A stretch of DNA of 64,000 nucleotides, from contig CAIRGJ010000023.1 of the NCBI GenBank assembly GCA_903878085.1, forward strand, positions 1 through 64,000, written 5' to 3'. The notes beneath the pieces were generated by a model. That model had not been told where the DNA came from, searched no databases, and was given only the letters and a program-made list of their open reading frames with translations. The translations under genes and the position numbers were made by a program. The stretch is from an uncultured Hyphomicrobiales bacterium. GTDB lineage: Bacteria; Pseudomonadota; Alphaproteobacteria; Rhizobiales; Xanthobacteraceae. The stretch's first letter is position 1. Each line of letters starts with the position of its first letter. This document shows, one piece after another, positions 161 to 23,370 of this stretch.

Positions 161-2695
161 CTACCACTTCCAGGCAAGCGACGCGGTGATGATCTGCGCC
201 GTGTAGTTCGGGTTGTTATAGGCCAGGAACAAGGAGCGGCCACCGCTGGTAATGTCCGTGCCACCAGCATCGGCCGCCGACGGCGAGTACGGGCTGAAGT
301 TGTCGGTCGCCCAGTTGGTGTTGGCGTTACGCTCCCAAGTGTAACGCAGCTTGGCGGTCACGCTGCCGAACAAGCCCATCTGTTTCACGTAGCTCGGATC
401 GAAATAGTACTTCGCGAGGATGCTGAAGCGCTGGAAGATGTTGCGCTCATCCGGGAACTGGGTCGCCGTGGTCTGCCCGGTATTGAGGCCATTACAGCCG
501 GTGCCGTTGGACGTGCAGTACGCTGTCTGGTTGGCTTCGTTCGAGATCGCGGCGACGTAGTCCGCTTTGAAGTCGAGCTTGCCGGGGATCGCGTTCCATG
601 TGGTCGAGGCGCTAAAGGTGTCGTATTTCTGCGTGATATCGCTCGACCACTTGTCCGCGTCGTTGAACGGCACGGTGGCGGCACCGCCGCCGCAGCAGGA
701 TTGCAGCCGCAGATAGTGCTCTTCGTGATTATATCCGAATGTCATGCGCAGTTCGGGAGTGACGCGAACGTTCACATCGGTACCGAGATTCCACGACCGG
801 TCGTATTTCGTGCCGAGCGAATCTGTCAGCGGCAGAACCAATGCCGACGCCGCGTTTCCCGACATTACTTGTTGGCCGGGGTAGTTATCATAGCGCAGGC
901 CACCGTTCGGGCTGATGGTGACGTTCTTGAAGGCGGCGAGCTCGACCACGGTGTTCAATTTGGTGCGGTCGCGATTGGCCACGAAGAAGTAGCGCATCGC
1001 GGCGGCTGCCGGGTCGGTGGAAGTGGCGAGCCAGTTGTTGTAACGGCGCTGCGAATAATCCACCGAGGACCGCATGGTGGCCAATTTCCACGTCGCATTG
1101 ACGAAGGCCTTACCGCCGACCTCATTGGTTGAATCGACCTCGGCGTTCTGAAGGTTGAGGCGTTCCATGAAGGGACCGCCGCCAATCGCCCAGGTCCGGT
1201 TGATCTGCCATTTCAGCTGATCTTCGAGGTTCAGCCTGGTGCTGGAGGTCGGCAATCGGGTGATCGACGCGGTATTTGCGGTGCCGGCGTCTCCATAGAC
1301 GTAGTCCGTGAAGGCCAGCGTCGGCGTGTTGTCTTTGCGGTCGTAGTAACGCACGCGGGCGGTATTGCTCAGATCGTTGGTGATGTGAGACGTCAACACG
1401 TTATTGCTGAGGAAGGCATTCACCGCCCCGTTCAGGCTCCCCGCTGGATAGGGATTAAGCTGACTCGCGCCCGGCCCCACGGTAATACCATTTATGGCAT
1501 CATTGATGAACGCGTCATTCTGCCGGAACATGGTGTATTGCACCGTGCTGACGTAGCGGCTTTTCATGACCGGCAGATCGACCGCGGTATTCCAGGTCAC
1601 GCCATTGGCGGAATTGTCGGGGGCGAGGCCGTAGCGCATCAAATTGGGCCCGATTTGCGTCCCCGCGGCAACGGAGGCGCCAGTTTCAGCAACGCAGGTA
1701 ATACAGAACGGATTGTCGACGTCGATTGATTTGATGCTGTTGTTATAGAACGATCCCATATATTTGACCGAGGTGTTCCAGCGCGTGCCCCACGGGGTCG
1801 CGCCGGAATACTCGCCGGCGCCATTGACGTTCTGCGTGCGGTCGTCGAGCGGCTGAGGGACCTCGATCGCACCCGAACTAGGACGCGGTGAGTTTGCGGC
1901 CGGAACGCCGGCGGCGGTGGTCAGCGAGTAGCCATATCCGATGCCAAGCGGGCGCGTGCCAGTACGGTGCTCATTGGAATAATCGAAGTTGAAATCCCAG
2001 TTGTCCAGCATCGTGTTGCGATAGCCAATGGTGGCTTTTTCACGCAACGTCTTCAGCTCGATGTTGGACATCGGCGCAGTGTTGTCGATGTAGTTTTCGA
2101 TCGCGTTTCGCTGGGCCTGGGTTTGCGTCGCCGGGCCCAGGTTGGACTGCAAGAAGGTCCGTGACGCGGAGTCCACCGTCAGTCGGTTGGTGCCGACGCC
2201 GCCGAAGATGCTCTTGGCGCTGGTGCCCAGCAGATGCGGCGTCTGGTCCCAGCCCATGTTGAAGTACTGCCGGCCGGGCTCGTAGAGACCGAGGTAATAG
2301 CGCTGATTGTCCATGCCGACATTGTCGGCCCAGATATCGACGGCGTAGCGACCGTCCTTGCTGCCGGCGTTGACCGAGATTTCATTGAGAAACAGGCTAC
2401 GCGGCACCTTGCCGTATTCATCCATTTTAGCAGAGCTGGTGGTTGTCGACGGCGTCAGCCAGAAGGGGTCGGTGGAGGTCTTGCCGAAGCCGTTGCCAGG
2501 CTTCTGAATGAAGAAATTGGAGCCCGCTTCGATGCTGCCGTTCGAGTACCAGCCGGATATATCTTCCGTAGCCGCTGCCTTCACCGGCATTTGGTCGGCC
2601 GCCTTGGCCGTGACCGCTGGAAATATCGCTACCAGCATGGCTCCGCTAAGCAAGACTGCCTTGCGAGATACAAAAATGTTGCTTCGGACTTTCAT
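161..2695 (-). CDS. pioB: MtrB/PioB family decaheme-associated outer membrane beta-barrel protein
   Basis: 844 aa with signal peptide (AVTAKAADQ), beta-barrel-like repeats, C-terminal aromatic residue (LAWKW); directly downstream of a decaheme cytochrome gene. Confidence 0.88.
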
Positions 2696-2793
2696 GCCAC
2701 TCGCCCCTTAACAAACCTTGGTACGGTTCGCGCCTTACCCCAGTTTCAGCTTTGCGGCCGCCCGCATTTGGCAGGCGGCCGAACCACCGTCGT

Positions 2794-4233
2794 TTACCGC
2801 ATGAACCGCGCGCCAGCCGGATTGTTCGAACCATGGTGGTTCGAATGGCAGTTCTGGCACTCGCGACCTTGCGCATAGAGCGAGACCGACGGGTTGCGCG
2901 GATTGCTGTTGTGCTGGCCACCCGAGTGGCACTGCTGGCACAGACGCGGCCGCGAAACCTTCAGTAGGAAGTCATTGTTGGAGCCGTGCGGATCGTGACA
3001 GTTCAGGCAGCTCTCGGTCACCGGCGGGTGCTCCCACAGGAACGGTCCGCGCTTCTCGGCATGGCACTGGAAGCAGGCGTCGTTGACGGTCGCCGTCTTC
3101 AGCAAAGATTCCGAATAGCTGCCGTGCGGGTTGTGGCAGTCCGAGCATACGACCTTACCCTCGCGCACCGGGATATGGGACGAACGCCACATCTCCGCTC
3201 GCTTGTTCTTGTGGCACTGGAAGCAAGTGTCGGGCTGGAATTCCGTCTTCAATTGAGACTTACGCGACACGTTCTTCATCACCGTGTGGCAGTTTGTGCA
3301 CATAAGACCGCGCTCATCGTGCGTGCTGCCGTGCCAATTCGTTCGGTTGCCCTTTTCGTGGCAGCCGAGGCAGAGCGCGTTGTTTTCTTCCGCGGTCCGG
3401 CTCATATCGTCCGTGCGGAAGGAAACGATTCCGCCAACGCCGCGTCCGCCGCCGGCCTTGACGTGGGCCGATCCAGGACCGTGGCAGTTCTCACAGTCAA
3501 ATTTTCCTTTTTGGGTCTTGCCGATCTTGCCCATGAGCGTCTTTTCGAACGCCGCCGTCTGGCTCGCATGGCAAGTCAAGCAGGTCTTCGCGCCGACAAA
3601 GGTTGCGTCGACCGGGGCACTCTTATTTTTTGCCGCCGACGACTTCGAGGCCTTCGGTGCTTCGCCCGCGGGCGCAGATTGTCCCGAGCCCTTCATGCCT
3701 TCCATCAGCGAGTCGAAAATATTGTCGGCCTCGGCCACTTTCGGCAGAGCCTTGATCGATTGCGGCTGCGCCGTGCCCAACCGCTGCGCGAAGTCCTGCA
3801 GCGCGGCATAGGCTTGGTCGTCGAACTGGCGATCCGCATTAACTGCCGAAGCGGCAGGCCGTTTCGAATCACCGGCCGCAATCTGTTGCGCAAAAGCGCT
3901 TAGCGCCGACACGGCCTCATCGCCGGCATCCTGGCGGGTAGCCTGTCCGGATTGTTGGGAACTGACTGTCTGGGCCTCGCCGCGCAAGGCAGACTGGATG
4001 CCCGCGACAGTGAATGTGGCCTCTGCTTTGGCCGGCTGACTAAAATCAAGCGAGGCGCACAAGATTAGCGCTGACGCTGTGAAGAATAGAAATTTCTTAT
4101 TCAGCCTGAATTTTGATATTAGCGGAATTTTTGCTGATGATGTCTCGCTGGAAGCGAAATCAACTGCAATGCGACCACAGTTTTTCACGTAACCACCCCC
4201 GCTAACACACAGCCCCACGTCACGCGTCGACAC
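2794..4233 (-). CDS. pioA: DmsE/MtrA/PioA family decaheme c-type cytochrome with long N-terminal extension
   Basis: Ten CxxCH motifs counted (CLTCH, CENCH, CLGCH, CTNCH, CFQCH, CSDCH, CFQCH, CLNCH, CQQCH, CQNCH); signal peptide; ~190 aa non-heme N-terminal region as in PioA rather than MtrA. Confidence 0.92.
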   Translation of the reverse strand: MSTRDVGLCVSGGGYVKNCGRIAVDFASSETSSAKIPLISKFRLNKKFLFFTASALILCASLDFSQPAKAEATFTVAGIQSALRGEAQTVSSQQSGQATRQDAGDEAVSALSAFAQQIAAGDSKRPAASAVNADRQFDDQAYAALQDFAQRLGTAQPQSIKALPKVAEADNIFDSLMEGMKGSGQSAPAGEAPKASKSSAAKNKSAPVDATFVGAKTCLTCHASQTAAFEKTLMGKIGKTQKGKFDCENCHGPGSAHVKAGGGRGVGGIVSFRTDDMSRTAEENNALCLGCHEKGNRTNWHGSTHDERGLMCTNCHTVMKNVSRKSQLKTEFQPDTCFQCHKNKRAEMWRSSHIPVREGKVVCSDCHNPHGSYSESLLKTATVNDACFQCHAEKRGPFLWEHPPVTESCLNCHDPHGSNNDFLLKVSRPRLCQQCHSGGQHNSNPRNPSVSLYAQGRECQNCHSNHHGSNNPAGARFMR

Positions 4234-4393
4234 GACGCTGACTATAGAAGCGCATCAGTTTGGCGGGATGCTACGAAACGCAACTGCGATACTTCAAGTC
4301 TACTCTACTCGTTTAGCACACGCTTGATGCTCGTATGCTCAGCCCGCCCCCGAAAACATTAACAAAACGTAACCGTTAGCAAGTGCAAAAACC

Positions 4394-4407
4394 ATGATCT
4401 GGGTCAA
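4394..4407. promoter_or_regulatory. Candidate FixK/FNR-type box upstream of pioA
   Basis: ATGATCTGGGTCAA; keeps TGA-N6-TCA, two mismatches to TTGAT-N4-ATCAA. Confidence 0.35.
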
Positions 4408-4632
4408 ACTCGCCAACTAAAAATAAGCACGCGGCGAGCACGTTGATTGATTGATAAAAAGCAAGACGAAATCTGCGGCAAACGAATTATCACGTGTACA
4501 CAATTAAGTCCGGCGCCAGCGACGACCTCTATCCGGGCTGGCACAACGGCGGCCGCCGTCCTCCCATCCAATCCTACAACTCCGCAAGTTTTGTCATTGT
4601 ATTTGCGATCGGCAGATTGCGAGACAATCAAT

Positions 4633-5160
4633 TCAATCGCACTGTTTGTATTGCGATGTCTCACACTTGTGCGCCATCGTCAGCGCTTCGACGACCTGCG
4701 GATCAATGATATATTTTGAAACGGTGTCACGCAGGCGAACTGCATTAGGGTTGCCTTTTGCAGCAGCTATACTCAGCCACATATAAGCGCGAATAAAATC
4801 CTCAGGAACACCTTGTCCTTCGTAATACATCGCGCCGAGATTCAACTGCGCGCTTGCATACCCTTGCGCCGCCGCCAACCGATACCATTTTACTGCCGCT
4901 TTGAAGTCCTGAGCGACACCTTTTCCGTTATAATACATTGCGCCAAGACCATTCTGCGCTTGCGCATCCCCCTGTTCTGCTAGTGGACGCAATAGCCGCA
5001 TCGCGGTCGCATAATCACCGCCATCATAGGCGGCCATTGAATCTTCCATGGGACCTGCATGAATAACACCCGTGATCATGATGCAGCCCAGCACAAGCGT
5101 CGTAATCATTAGCGTACGAAAAAACTGTTGGTGCATTTCCTGCCTGCAGCAATTGCACAC
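4633..5160 (-). CDS. Sel1-repeat (tetratricopeptide-like) secreted protein
   Basis: Repeats AQNGLGAMYYNGKGVAQDFKAAVKWYRLAAAQGYASAQLNLGAMYYEGQGVPEDF; N-terminal signal sequence; start may be internal (MHQQFF). Confidence 0.85.
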   Translation of the reverse strand: MCNCCRQEMHQQFFRTLMITTLVLGCIMITGVIHAGPMEDSMAAYDGGDYATAMRLLRPLAEQGDAQAQNGLGAMYYNGKGVAQDFKAAVKWYRLAAAQGYASAQLNLGAMYYEGQGVPEDFIRAYMWLSIAAAKGNPNAVRLRDTVSKYIIDPQVVEALTMAHKCETSQYKQCD

Positions 5161-5211
5161 TGGCCTGTTTTGACCACCAGCGGCCTGATTTGGAATTGGG
5201 CGTGGCCTGCT

Positions 5212-5225
5212 TTGATCTAGATCAC
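5212..5225. promoter_or_regulatory. Candidate FixK/FNR-type box upstream of the Sel1-repeat gene
   Basis: TTGATCTAGATCAC, one mismatch to TTGAT-N4-ATCAA. Confidence 0.4.
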
Positions 5226-5568
5226 AGTTGTATCAGTTAGCGAACATATAGGCGACATAGAGAGGACATATACAAGGCGGGCTTCACTGGTTACCCGCCA
5301 ATGGCGGACGTTCATTAGCGCGAGTGGCATGTCCGCTTTAGGTCACTCACGACCAAATGGCGATGCCTTAGAATGTTCGCTTATCCCCCGTTAGCAACCA
5401 AAATCACCCTATAGCGACCGTGCGCCCCGGCTGAGTTATCCGAACCGAATGGATGCGATGCCAGTATTTTTGTTCGCTATCGGGTGAACAGCAGGCATTC
5501 GCTGCATTGCCGCGAACGGTAGCGATGGGCCATTAGCGAACGTGACAGCAAAGCCGCACGATGTCTGA

Positions 5569-5770
5569 TCATCTCACCGATGCGGACAATAGGTTGAAGC
5601 CGTCAAAATGAAGCTTCGTCAATGCTTCTTTCATTGCCTCACTTGAGGTGCCGTGCACATAAGCCCCGCCCGTTGAATTGTCAGCGTGACCGCATAAAAG
5701 CCGCTCGTTCGTTGGACGAGGTACCAAACGTTCTTTGCCAGTATCTGCCTAAAAGTGTGAAAGGAACTAT
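5569..5770 (-). pseudogene. Remnant of tyrosine recombinase/phage-type integrase C-terminus (frameshifted)
   Basis: Minus frame ends NERLLCGHADNSTGGAYVHGTSSEAMKEALTKLHFDGFNLLSASVR*, with GH-x8-Y spacing; another frame just upstream reads SSFHTFRQILAKNVWYLVQRT with an HxxR-like box at the expected ~25-residue distance. Confidence 0.55.
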
Positions 5771-5915
5771 CGCAAGAAAACGAGAAGAAATATTGATAGA
5801 TCAAATAGTTGTTGAAAAAAAAGCAGTAGAAATCGTTAGCGCGGCCTCCTTTTGGCCACCACTATAGAATTGCAGCGATCTCAGTGCCTTAACTGTGAGC
5901 GCGCCGGGGCGCGCG

Positions 5916-8900
5916 TCAGGCGAAGGCTTTTCGCTCGCCGGTCGCTGTCTTGCGGACCGCCGGCATCGTCAGCCGGGCAAAGATCGGAATCACCAGCAAG
6001 CTGCAGATCGGCGACAGCAACATGCCGCCGACGATCACGCAGGCCAGCGGCTGTTGAACCTGCGAACCGATGCCGGTGGATAGCGCCGCCGGCACCAGGC
6101 CGATGCAGGCCGAGAAACCGGTCATGAAAATCTGCCGCATGCGGGTTTGCGCCGCCTGGATGATGGCCTCGTCTTTGCCGAGGCCCTGGTCCATGGCGCG
6201 GCGAATGTAAGAGACCAGCAGGATGCCATCCATCGCCGACACGCCGAACAGCGAGATGAATCCGACGGCGGCCGACACGCTGGCGTTCAAACCGAAAACA
6301 TAAAGCCCGAGAATGCCGCCGCAGGCCGCGAACGGAATGCCGGACAGCGCCAGCAGACTGTCGCGCACGGAATTGAACAGGCTGTAGAGCAGCATCATGA
6401 TCAGGATCAGGCTGAGCGGGATGATGACGGCGAGCCGCTTCTTGGCTTCGACCAGCGCGCCGAACTCGCCCGACCACTCCAGGCGATAGCCTTCCTTGAG
6501 CACCACGTTCTTGGCGATACGCTCCTGCGCTTCGGCAACGGTCGAGCCCAGGTCGCGGCCGCGCACGCTGTATTTGATCGGAACGAAACGTTCGGTGTTT
6601 TCCCGGTAGATATAAGCGGCGCCCGTTTCGAGCCGCACGGTGGCGACGTCGCCCAGCGCGATATAGCTGGTCGGCGACTTCGGATCGGGATTCGGCAGAC
6701 CGACCGGTATTGAACGGATGGTGTCGATATTGTCCCGGTATTGCGAGGCGAGGCGAATGGTGAGGGGGGAAGTTCATTTCGCCCTCGTAGACGCGCGTGA
6801 TTTCCTGGCCGCCGATTGCCGCCTGCACCACGGTGTTGATATCGGTAACAGTGATGCCGTAGCGGGCGGCCTTGGCGCGATCCACCTGGATCAACAAGTT
6901 CGGCTGGCCGAGCAGGTTGAATGCAGCCGGATCGGTGATGCCCGGCACCTTGGCGAGTTCGTCCTTGACCGCCCTGGACAGACGTTCGAGCTCGTCCAAG
7001 CTGCGTCCGAAAATCTTGACCGAATTCTCGCCTTTCACGCCGGAGACGGCTTCTTCGATATTGTCCTGGATATATTGCGAGAAATTGAAGTCGATGCCGA
7101 TGAACTCGCTTTCCAGCCGCGCCGCCATCTCTTTGACCAATTTGGGTTTGGTCAGCCCGTCCGGCCATTCCTCGAACGGTTTGAGCGGCACGAAGAACTC
7201 GGCGATAAACGAGCCGTCGGGGTCGGTGCCGTCTTCGCCGCGGCCTTGCTCCGACACGACGGTGCGCACCGGCGCATAGCTCGCGATGATATTGCGAATC
7301 TTGTTTGTGGTTTCGCGGCCCGCCTCGAGCGTGATGGTCGGCGGCAGCAGCGCGCGAATCCAGAGATTGCCTTCTTCCAGCTTGGGCAGAAATTCGGTGC
7401 CGAGCCGCATGCCGAGGCCGCCGCAGACCACCAGAAATGCGACCGCAACCACCGCGGCCAGTCGTGCATTGCCTACTGCGGCCGAAAGAACGCGCTGGTA
7501 GACGGCGCGTAACTGCCGGACCAGAAAGGTTTCGACCTCACTCACTTTGTCGGGCAGCAGCAGCGACGACATCACCGGCGTCACCGTGAAAGTCGCGATC
7601 ACCGCTCCGAGCAGCGCATAAGCGTAAGTCCGCGACATCGGCCCAAAGATCTGGCCTTCCACGCCTTGCATGGTGAACAGTGGCAGGAAGGCGGCGATTG
7701 TAATGATCACCGAAAATAGGATCGCCTTGTCGACCTCCACGGCGGCATTGAGAATGCGGCGCAGCTTGTCCGTCAGCTTGCTGTCGCGGTCGGAGATTTC
7801 GCGGCCGACCTGATGGGCCAGATGCCGGAAAACGTTCTCGACCATGATCACGGTGCCGTCGACGATGATGCCGAGGTCGATCGCGCCGACCGACAGCAGA
7901 TTGGCTGAATCCCCGCGCAGCACGGTGATGATGACGGCAAGGAACAGCGCGACCGGAATGGTGGCGGCCACGATCAGCGCGCAGCGTAGATTGCCCAGGA
8001 ATATCCACTGGATCAGGAAGATCAGCACAATGCCGAACAGCATGTTGTGCATTACCGTGCGTACGGTGATGCCCACCAGGTCGCCGCGGTCGTAGAACGT
8101 GTCGATCCTCACACCCTGCGGCAGGCTGCCATCGGTGTTGATGCGCTCGATGGCGGCGCGCACCCGCGTCACCACATCCATGGTGCGCTCGTTCTTCTGC
8201 ATCAGCACGATGCCGAACAGGACGTCGTCCTGGCTGTCGCGGCCGGCGATGCCCATGCGCGGCGTAAAGCCGACTTGATCGCGGGCGATATCGCGGAGCA
8301 GGACCGGCAGCCCGCCTTGTTGGCTCAGAACAATACTGTCGATGTCGGTGAGCGAGCTGAGCGCCCCGATGCCGCGCACGTTGACGGCCTGCTCACCCAC
8401 CGCGATGTTGCGCCCGCCGACATTGGCGTTGCTGGTCGAAATCGCGCTGATGATCTGCGGCAAAGTGAGTCCATAGGCCCGCATGCGATCGAGATCGATC
8501 TCGGCTTGATATTCCTTGGTCTTGCCGCCCAGGGGCGAAATATCCGAGATACCCGGCACGATGCGGAGTTTCCGCTCCACCACCCAATCCTGCAGCGTTT
8601 TGAGCTCGATCAGGTCCATCCCCGGCGGACCCTTGAGTTGATAGCGGATGATTTCGCTGATGCCGCCGGCCGGCGAAATCACCGGCGTCACGGTGGCGGG
8701 GAGGGTGGCATCCTTGAGGCGGTTGGTGACCTGCTGGCGGACGAAATTGTAGTCGCGGCCATATTCGAATTGCAGGCGGATGAAGCCGAGCGCGAACACG
8801 GTGTTCGAGCGGATATAAGTGAGGCCGGGCGTGCTGGCGACGGCAATCTCCAGCGGCACGGTGACGTAGCGCTCGACTTCCTCCGGCGATTGGCCGGGAT

Positions 8901-9057
8901 ACTGCGCGATGATTTCAATGATCGGCGGCGAGGGATCGGGATAGGCCTCGACGTTGAGGGTCGTGAAAGCCGCGTAGCCAATGCCGAGAAATGCCGCAAA
9001 GCCGACCAGCGCCAACGGCCGCCGCGACAGGCAAAATGCGATCAGATGACGCAACAT
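5916..9057 (-). CDS. CzcA/CusA-type heavy-metal efflux RND inner-membrane pump; reading frame broken by an apparent 1-nt insertion in a G6 run at ~6764-6769
   Basis: N-terminal ~760 aa in the 5881..9057 ORF; correct C-terminus (GREDLGSTVAEAQERI-like ... RLTMPAVRK) in ORF 5916..6638 in another frame; TMH4 motif AIDLGIIVDGTVIMVEN. Confidence 0.9.
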
Positions 9058-22206: not shown

Positions 22207-23037
22207 TTACTCGGCGACAGCTGGAATAGGCTTGGGCGGCGAAGTGCGCGCGAGCCGCATCAACAGGAACATCGCAAATAGCGTGGCGATGTAGACGATC
22301 AGCTGCAATTCGGTCGGCCGCTCGGTGTAACCGATCAGCGTGTGCAGCAAGCGGCCCATGATGCTGCCATCCGACAGAATCCACGACGTGTCCCAGACCG
22401 TGCGGCCGAGCACTTCGGCAAATCCGGCATTGTTGAGGAACTGCACCGACTGTGCCGCCATGCCGGCGGCCAAGAGCGCGATCAGCCAGGTCGTGACCGT
22501 GAAGATGTGGCGGGTCGGGATCGCCACCAGGCCGATATAAGTCAGCCCGGTGAATGCCGCACCGGCCACGATGCCGAGCAGGCCGCCGATCAGCAGCGCC
22601 GAACCGGACGTGCCGGAAGCGAAAATTCCGTAGAGAAACAAGACCACTTCCGAGCCTTCGCGCAGTACCGCGAGGCCGACGACGATGGCGAGGGCGGTCA
22701 GCGGCTTGGCGCCTTCGCTCACCGCCGTGCCTATGGACTGCATCTCGGTGGCGATCTCGCGGCCGTGCCGCGCCATCCAAGCGTTGTGCCACATCAGCAT
22801 CACGACAGCGATGCCAAGTACGGCGGCGTTGAACAGCTCCTGGCCTGCGCCCTCGAACGCTTGTGAAATTGCGCCGGCGAACAGCGCCACGATCGCGGCG
22901 CCCAGCACGCCGCAGCCGACGCCGATATTGATCCAGCGGCCGCGCCCGAAGACGCCGCGCGTCGCTGCCATAACAATGCCGATGATGAGGCCGGCTTCGA
23001 TGACTTCGCGAAATACGATAATGAGTGCGCCAAGCAT
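22207..23037 (-). CDS. FTR1 family iron permease
   Basis: REVIEAGLIIGIV and REGSEVVLFLYGI motifs; seven TM pattern. Confidence 0.9.
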   Translation of the reverse strand: MLGALIIVFREVIEAGLIIGIVMAATRGVFGRGRWINIGVGCGVLGAAIVALFAGAISQAFEGAGQELFNAAVLGIAVVMLMWHNAWMARHGREIATEMQSIGTAVSEGAKPLTALAIVVGLAVLREGSEVVLFLYGIFASGTSGSALLIGGLLGIVAGAAFTGLTYIGLVAIPTRHIFTVTTWLIALLAAGMAAQSVQFLNNAGFAEVLGRTVWDTSWILSDGSIMGRLLHTLIGYTERPTELQLIVYIATLFAMFLLMRLARTSPPKPIPAVAE

Positions 23038-23040
23038 GAT

Positions 23041-23370
23041 TTATTCCGCGATGACCACGCCTTTGGCGGTGGCTTCATGAAACTCGCCGACGAATGGATA
23101 GCGGCCGGGCTTGAGCGGACCGATCCGCACCACACCCTTCGATTTGCCGGCAATAATCTTCTCGACTTTCAAAATCTTGCTTTCGAATTCCTCGGCCGTG
23201 GCGTCTTCATTGATTACGGTGATCGCCACCCGCTGGTTGGCGGGCACCTTGATGTCTTCCGGCGTGAACTTGTGGTCCTTGATGGTCAGGACATAGTCCT
23301 GGGCGCGGGCGGAGGCGGGCGCCAACGTCACCAGGGCGGCAAGGCCGAGCAGGATTAAAAAGCTGCGCAT
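23041..23370 (-). CDS. Periplasmic cupredoxin-domain protein paired with FTR1
   Basis: FTPEDIKVPANQRVAITVINEDATAEEFES...GRYPFVGEFHEATAKG. Confidence 0.85.
   Translation of the reverse strand: MRSFLILLGLAALVTLAPASARAQDYVLTIKDHKFTPEDIKVPANQRVAITVINEDATAEEFESKILKVEKIIAGKSKGVVRIGPLKPGRYPFVGEFHEATAKGVVIAE

Follow-up and report, generated by a model that had tools for sequence, protein, structure and literature searches.

The window, by which we mean the whole stretch of 64,000 nucleotides analysed here, comprises bases 1-64000 of contig C23 (153,854 bp) in a draft genome (G000; 4.41 Mb, 64 contigs, 99.3% complete, 1.6% contamination). Its first few kilobases hold a pioA-like and a pioB-like gene, with the following features:

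1-160, no strand: contig end, comprising all assembled sequence 3' of pioB; a pioC or cytochrome gene could lie beyond it
161-2695, reverse strand: pioB-like gene, an outer-membrane beta-barrel of the MtrB/PioB family, 844 aa
2794-4188, reverse strand: pioA-like gene, a periplasmic decaheme cytochrome c, 464 aa, with a revised GTG start
2797-3582, reverse strand: decaheme domain with ten CXXCH sites, from a motif scan and the match to MtrA 6r2q_A
3583-4023, reverse strand: PioA N-terminal extension with the pair SALSAFAQQIA / AALQDFAQRLG, from sequence and motif counts
4394-4407, no strand: FixK/FNR-like box TTGA-N6-TCAA with one mismatch; its centre lies 212 bp before the pioA start
4451-4464, no strand: second FixK/FNR-like box with one mismatch; its centre lies 269 bp before pioA

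A pioAB pair at the end of a contig

The PioAB pair is real, far above chance. In profile searches the barrel protein exceeded the cut-offs of both TIGR03509 (270 bits, 240 required) and PF11854 (291.6 bits), and the cytochrome scored 258.6 bits against TIGR03508 (cut-off 192.2), so the PioAB/MtrAB assignment made in a preliminary description of this DNA holds, as does its count of ten heme sites. Besides the ten CXXCH motifs, PioA has exactly ten other histidines when counted from ~30 residues upstream of the first heme, the number needed for bis-histidine ligation of ten hemes, which suggests that the hemes are ligated in this way. Among solved structures, PioA matches the MtrA chain 6r2q_A (E=5.9e-62); the PDB copy gives that chain a wrong molecule name. 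An AlphaFold2 model of PioB from 16 sequences (mean pLDDT 74, pTM 0.71) has MtrB 6r2q_B as its top PDB match (E 6.9e-36, TM 0.85 on the target), the runner-up standing at 3.9e-10. Together, the genes and the predicted fold point to a PioA-PioB complex that would move electrons across the outer membrane.

The pioA gene most likely begins at the GTG at 4188, because an RBS-like stretch, GGGGGTGG, precedes it and a relative (G041) starts at the same residue; the in-frame GTG at 4233 chosen earlier is probably too early. The resulting protein consists of a signal peptide (~1-55, boundary set by eye), an extension (~56-202) and the heme region. A long stretch separating the signal peptide from the first heme, the PioA-like trait of Gupta et al. 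2019, had been ascribed to this protein at the outset and is indeed present at ~147 residues; in TIE-1 PioA it spans ~200 residues (PMC6831781). We also looked for an internal hydrophobic region, but only the signal peptide exceeded threshold in the window PioA, and the same is true of most phototroph PioA proteins tested, so this feature is uninformative. A pair of SALxxFAxxIG-like motifs occurs in the extensions of the window protein, a second copy in this genome (below) and several non-phototroph relatives; the 13 matches against 0.03 in shuffles are a description and not a test, because the pattern was derived from the same sequences.

FixK-like boxes are overrepresented upstream of related pioA genes in phototrophs and non-phototrophs alike. 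Across 16 pioA loci (at most 400 bp each, compared with mononucleotide shuffles), we counted 19 boxes with no more than one mismatch where 1.9 were expected, and nine exact boxes against 0.06. In TIE-1, transcription of pioA starts 177 bp upstream of the start codon with a bound box at -44.5 (PMC3050613), a distance similar to that of the window boxes. Judging by these sites, PioAB expression is probably under FixK/FNR-type control and induced when oxygen is low. A hairpin in the pioA-pioB intergenic region was considered and set aside, as it is unexceptional (z -1.41) and not clearly conserved.

Several neighbouring features are recorded here for completeness. Positions 4400-5870, upstream of pioA, have 50% GC compared with 62.6% window-wide and contain a Sel1-repeat ORF (4633-5160). 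A CzcA/ACR_tran-type RND pump gene (5881-9057 and 5916-6638, reverse strand) seems frameshifted, by either a real mutation or an assembly error: its PF00873 match ends at residue 760, the frame apparently resumes in 5916-6638, and a G run lies at ~6760-6770. An FTR1-type iron permease adjoins a cupredoxin-like protein at 22207-23370 (reverse strand), and G019 apparently has an FTR1-like gene ~6 kb from its own pioAB (L024 3164-3997).

The preliminary description read homology as cut right after pioB. This is an artefact of assembly, as window base 1 is contig base 1. The last 164 bp at this end of C23 occur once in the assembly, which rules out a repeat as the reason for the break, and a unique end gives no hint of what comes after pioB.

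A second pioAB pair with cytochrome neighbours

Two things escaped the preliminary description because they lie outside the window: a related non-phototrophic lineage (below) and a second pioAB pair in the same genome, on contig C64:

L003 8638-19483 and L118 2811-3260 (contig C64): electron-transfer cluster with the second pioAB pair

The PioB encoded there (C64 272033-274480) is 38% identical to the window PioB, and its own ten-heme PioA shares 59% overall identity with the window PioA. Around them are encoded a protein with nine CXXCH motifs and a cytochrome-b-like half in the membrane (weakly similar to formate dehydrogenase gamma and NrfH), two PdsA-like tetraheme proteins that score under the PdsA cut-off, a conserved one-heme membrane protein that belongs to no family, and two one-heme proteins of 73 residues each. 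Directly 3' of pioB, in the place that pioC would occupy, stands a gene for a 149-residue monoheme cytochrome c with a PSCyt1 domain, followed by ccm genes. C64 carries two exact TTGAT-N4-ATCAA boxes: a CRP/FNR-type regulator gene adjoins one, and the other precedes the cytochrome-b/multiheme gene.

Some of these small proteins recur elsewhere. The one-heme membrane protein, which starts near PLHRxYxHYSELP (L003 13217-14005; also L021, L023, L024, L032 and L039), is common to many non-phototroph pioAB clusters, and the copies scanned have no Pfam or NCBIfam match. One-heme proteins of 73-104 residues with a CGxCHxNPxGGG-like context lie beside pioA in L003 (14706-14927 and 15002-15223, both without a Pfam match), L024, L031, L032 and L021. 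Genes of the 2-oxoacid:ferredoxin oxidoreductase type are found near the pioAB cluster in this genome (L035 1-2800, C64) and in G046 (L023 923-3857).

Partner genes of these kinds were seen only beside the C64 pair and in relatives; the window pair has none as a neighbour. Its isolation from other cytochrome genes, together with the apparent frameshift in the nearby RND pump gene, would fit a window pair that is decaying or redundant, a paralogue of the working conduit on C64. We regard this as unlikely, since both window genes are intact, with all ten hemes and the conserved columns retained, and FixK-like boxes stand upstream of pioA. It is also at odds with the nearest relative of both window genes, the uncultured Hyphomicrobiales nzgw528 (JAHFPN010000020.1, taken as G089; PioB 45%, PioA 75% over the heme domain), in which the window lineage is the sole pioB and lies within a full cluster. 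Like this genome, nzgw528 yielded neither a reaction centre nor RuBisCO; unlike the window pair, its own has a ccmI-like gene after it and is clustered with genes for NrfD and for cytochromes of the hexaheme, PdsA-like and PSCyt1 kinds.

Phylogeny and occurrence of pioAB with and without photosynthesis genes

In a tree of the PioA heme domain (77 rows), nine phototroph PioA proteins form a clade (100/100) and the window PioA lies outside it, paired with that of G089 (99/97), with the C64 copy and G021/G019 nearby (89/90). In this tree, whose rows include no Sideroxydans MtoA, it is likewise outside the branch of MtrA and betaproteobacterial MtoA-like proteins (97/93). The alphaproteobacterial rows fall on one side of a branch whose support (57/98) is not firm. 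By AU test, grouping the window PioA alone with the phototroph clade is marginally rejected (p=0.042), while grouping it there together with G089 is not (p=0.39). The PioB tree, with SH-aLRT supports only, is clearer: the 19 alphaproteobacterial rows, a phototroph subclade and the window-G089 pair each receive 100, and the window PioB is outside the phototroph subclade. The cytochrome, with its ten hemes, falls within the PioA/MtrA clade, where it had been placed at the start, though outside both the phototroph PioA subclade and the MtrA/MtoA branch. PioA of G088, a genome of the same family as this one, groups with Rhodopseudomonas.

The preliminary description saw no photosynthesis context in the window, and genome-wide searches bear this out. 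The 99.3% complete draft contains no PF00124 match for a photosynthetic reaction centre, and no PF00016 match for RuBisCO (the sole CO2-fixation route looked for); HiPIP searches with Pfam and with a pioC profile built from nine sequences came up empty too. This profile recovers pioC in five of five phototroph relatives as well as HiPIP-like proteins in other genomes; the Pfam HiPIP model, which found two of the five pioC genomes, proved too insensitive to serve as the sole search. The earlier statement that pioB is without an adjacent pioC stands for the genome, where no HiPIP was found outside the unassembled gap, and not for the contig itself, since C23 stops 160 bp past pioB and the adjoining position is unreadable. 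That gap is an obvious place where a pioC could be hidden, and absences from a draft genome are never complete. For a surface cytochrome, no TIGR03507 (MtrC/OmcA) match over cut-off was found in the genome, where one protein reached 21.6 against the required 209 bits.

We compared this genome with 150 relatives. Full or near-full pioB is present in 14 of the 151 genomes, and one more has a fragment match. In five carriers (G052, G086, G088, G118 and G120) a HiPIP gene follows pioB, and exactly these five have a reaction centre and a strong RuBisCO match. The other nine, this genome included, are without a reaction centre, and a single weak RuBisCO-like match (G055) was obtained among them; some of these nine assemblies fall short of completeness (G021 81%, G089 82%, G029 88%). 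The table of pioABC against reaction centre, 5/0 versus 0/9, gives a Fisher p of 5e-4, in which the events are non-independent because the phototroph pairs are one clade, and for which the gene downstream of the window's own pioB is unseen. HiPIP is not a strict sign of phototrophy: no reaction centre was found in an uncultured Rhizobiales MAG (L039) in which a single cluster (349-7718) combines pioAB with genes for a HiPIP, a tetraheme protein and the one-heme membrane protein.

Strong matches to the PSCyt1 cytochrome occur in eight of the 151 genomes, all of them among the 14 pioB carriers (hypergeometric P=5e-10); five of these eight supplied the sequences for the profile, so that G021, G052 and G055 form the independent part. 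The PSCyt1 gene is directly 3' of pioB in G041, G079 and on C64 of this genome, and near pioAB in G046, G055 and G089; in the phototroph G052 it is on a different contig from pioABC.

These results bear on true photoferrotrophy, in which the window pair would belong to a pioABC operon whose pioC, together with the reaction-centre genes, was lost in assembly gaps. The contig does stop just past pioB, and the FixK-like boxes and N-terminal extension are found with phototroph pioA too. We nevertheless consider this highly improbable: neither reaction centre nor RuBisCO nor HiPIP was found in a nearly complete genome, eight related pioB genomes are also without a reaction centre, and both window proteins lie outside the phototroph subclade.

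Candidate carriers and direction of electron flow

Because the genome shows neither reaction centre nor RuBisCO, a light-independent role for the conduit is indicated. On balance, and with modest confidence, we favour a PioAB conduit across the outer membrane that works without light in an alphaproteobacterial lineage lacking these genes, with carriers, low-oxygen control and electron uptake as follows. The decaheme PioA would sit inside the PioB barrel and pass electrons across the outer membrane. Periplasmic c-type cytochromes (the PSCyt1-type monoheme, PdsA-like tetrahemes and small monohemes) most likely take the carrier role that the HiPIP PioC has in phototrophs, and the window pair would use those encoded on C64. 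The carriers would link PioA to the respiratory chain through a quinone-linked membrane multiheme/cytochrome b protein and an oxidase. The genome encodes two heme-copper oxidases, one of aa3 type on C24 and one on C56 whose length and adjoining CcoO-like gene point to the cbb3 type, and no other COX1-family protein; either could serve. Under FixK/FNR-type control, expression would rise at low oxygen, and with Fe(II) or some other compound outside the cell as donor, electron uptake would provide a supplementary, light-independent source of energy.

The preliminary description left the direction of flow open, and we agree that it is not coded in the sequence. Uptake is our best explanation, held at even confidence. 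The affinity to PioAB, the lack of a detected surface cytochrome and an analogy with MtoD lean this way: the literature describes PioAB and MtoAB as conducting electrons inward with no surface cytochrome (PMC6831781, PMC5566968), and the monoheme MtoD of Sideroxydans has been proposed to supply a terminal oxidase (PMC13390432). MtrAB-type conduits, however, are able to run in both directions (PMC8805035). Electron export, in which a heterotroph short of oxygen would use the conduit as MtrAB is used, passing electrons from respiration out of the cell to Fe(III), Mn(IV) or humics, is a serious though less probable reading. The cytochrome-b/multiheme membrane protein and PdsA-like tetrahemes of the C64 cluster fit export as well as uptake, PdsA being a periplasmic shuttle in Mtr export pathways (PMC8805035). 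FNR-type boxes would suit anaerobic respiration, and no RuBisCO was found that would allow autotrophic growth on electron uptake. Against export stand the affinity of the window proteins to PioAB and not to MtrA, and the lack of an MtrC/OmcA family protein over cut-off, which Shewanella needs for export (PMC6831781).

The system described here is close to several known ones. With PioABC, the photoferrotrophy system of Rhodopseudomonas palustris TIE-1 and Rhodomicrobium, it shares the ten-heme extended PioA, the PioB barrel, the order pioA-pioB, the upstream FixK-type boxes and the lack of a surface cytochrome; it differs in having no HiPIP, reaction centre or RuBisCO, in the position of its proteins outside the phototroph subclade, in its ~147-aa extension with a motif of its own and in the second pioAB pair. 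The MtoAB(D)-CymA/ImoA system of Sideroxydans lithotrophicus (light-independent oxidation of Fe(II) or magnetite) likewise has no surface cytochrome and, like the C64 cluster, c-type cytochromes rather than a HiPIP as periplasmic carriers, whereas the window PioA bears an extension and falls outside the branch of MtrA and MtoA-like proteins, the putative carriers here are PSCyt1 and PdsA-like, and RuBisCO is lacking. MtrCAB of Shewanella has the same two-protein core of a decaheme in a barrel, and the window barrel model matches its MtrB, but this genome has no MtrC/OmcA over cut-off, and the window PioA, with its long extension, is outside the MtrA branch.

Homologues of PioAB and MtoAB outside phototrophs already appear in surveys (PMC10654088, PMC5566968), as do MtrAB/PioAB homologues of non-phototrophic Alphaproteobacteria (PMC10654088), so novelty is limited to a variant and not a new class; our literature search found no published naming of this PioAB lineage. 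PioAB has been proposed as a marker of photoferrotrophy (PMC6831781), and the occurrence of an extended PioA with PioB in a non-phototrophic lineage speaks against this. Since extended PioA, barrel and FixK-type boxes occur where no reaction centre is found, calls of photoferrotrophy from pioAB alone can err. The PioAB conduit may be older or broader than photoferrotrophy, and it is an evenly balanced proposition that this lineage, which has neither reaction centre nor RuBisCO, exchanges electrons with its surroundings through it independently of light, that a PSCyt1-type monoheme is the periplasmic counterpart of PioC, and that two divergent conduits run in parallel in this genome. If so, PioAB with a long PioA extension would be no signature of photoferrotrophy. 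These genomes also offer a natural comparison of how one conduit is coupled to metabolism, by HiPIP and reaction centre in one group and, in the other, by c-type cytochromes together with oxidases or quinones.
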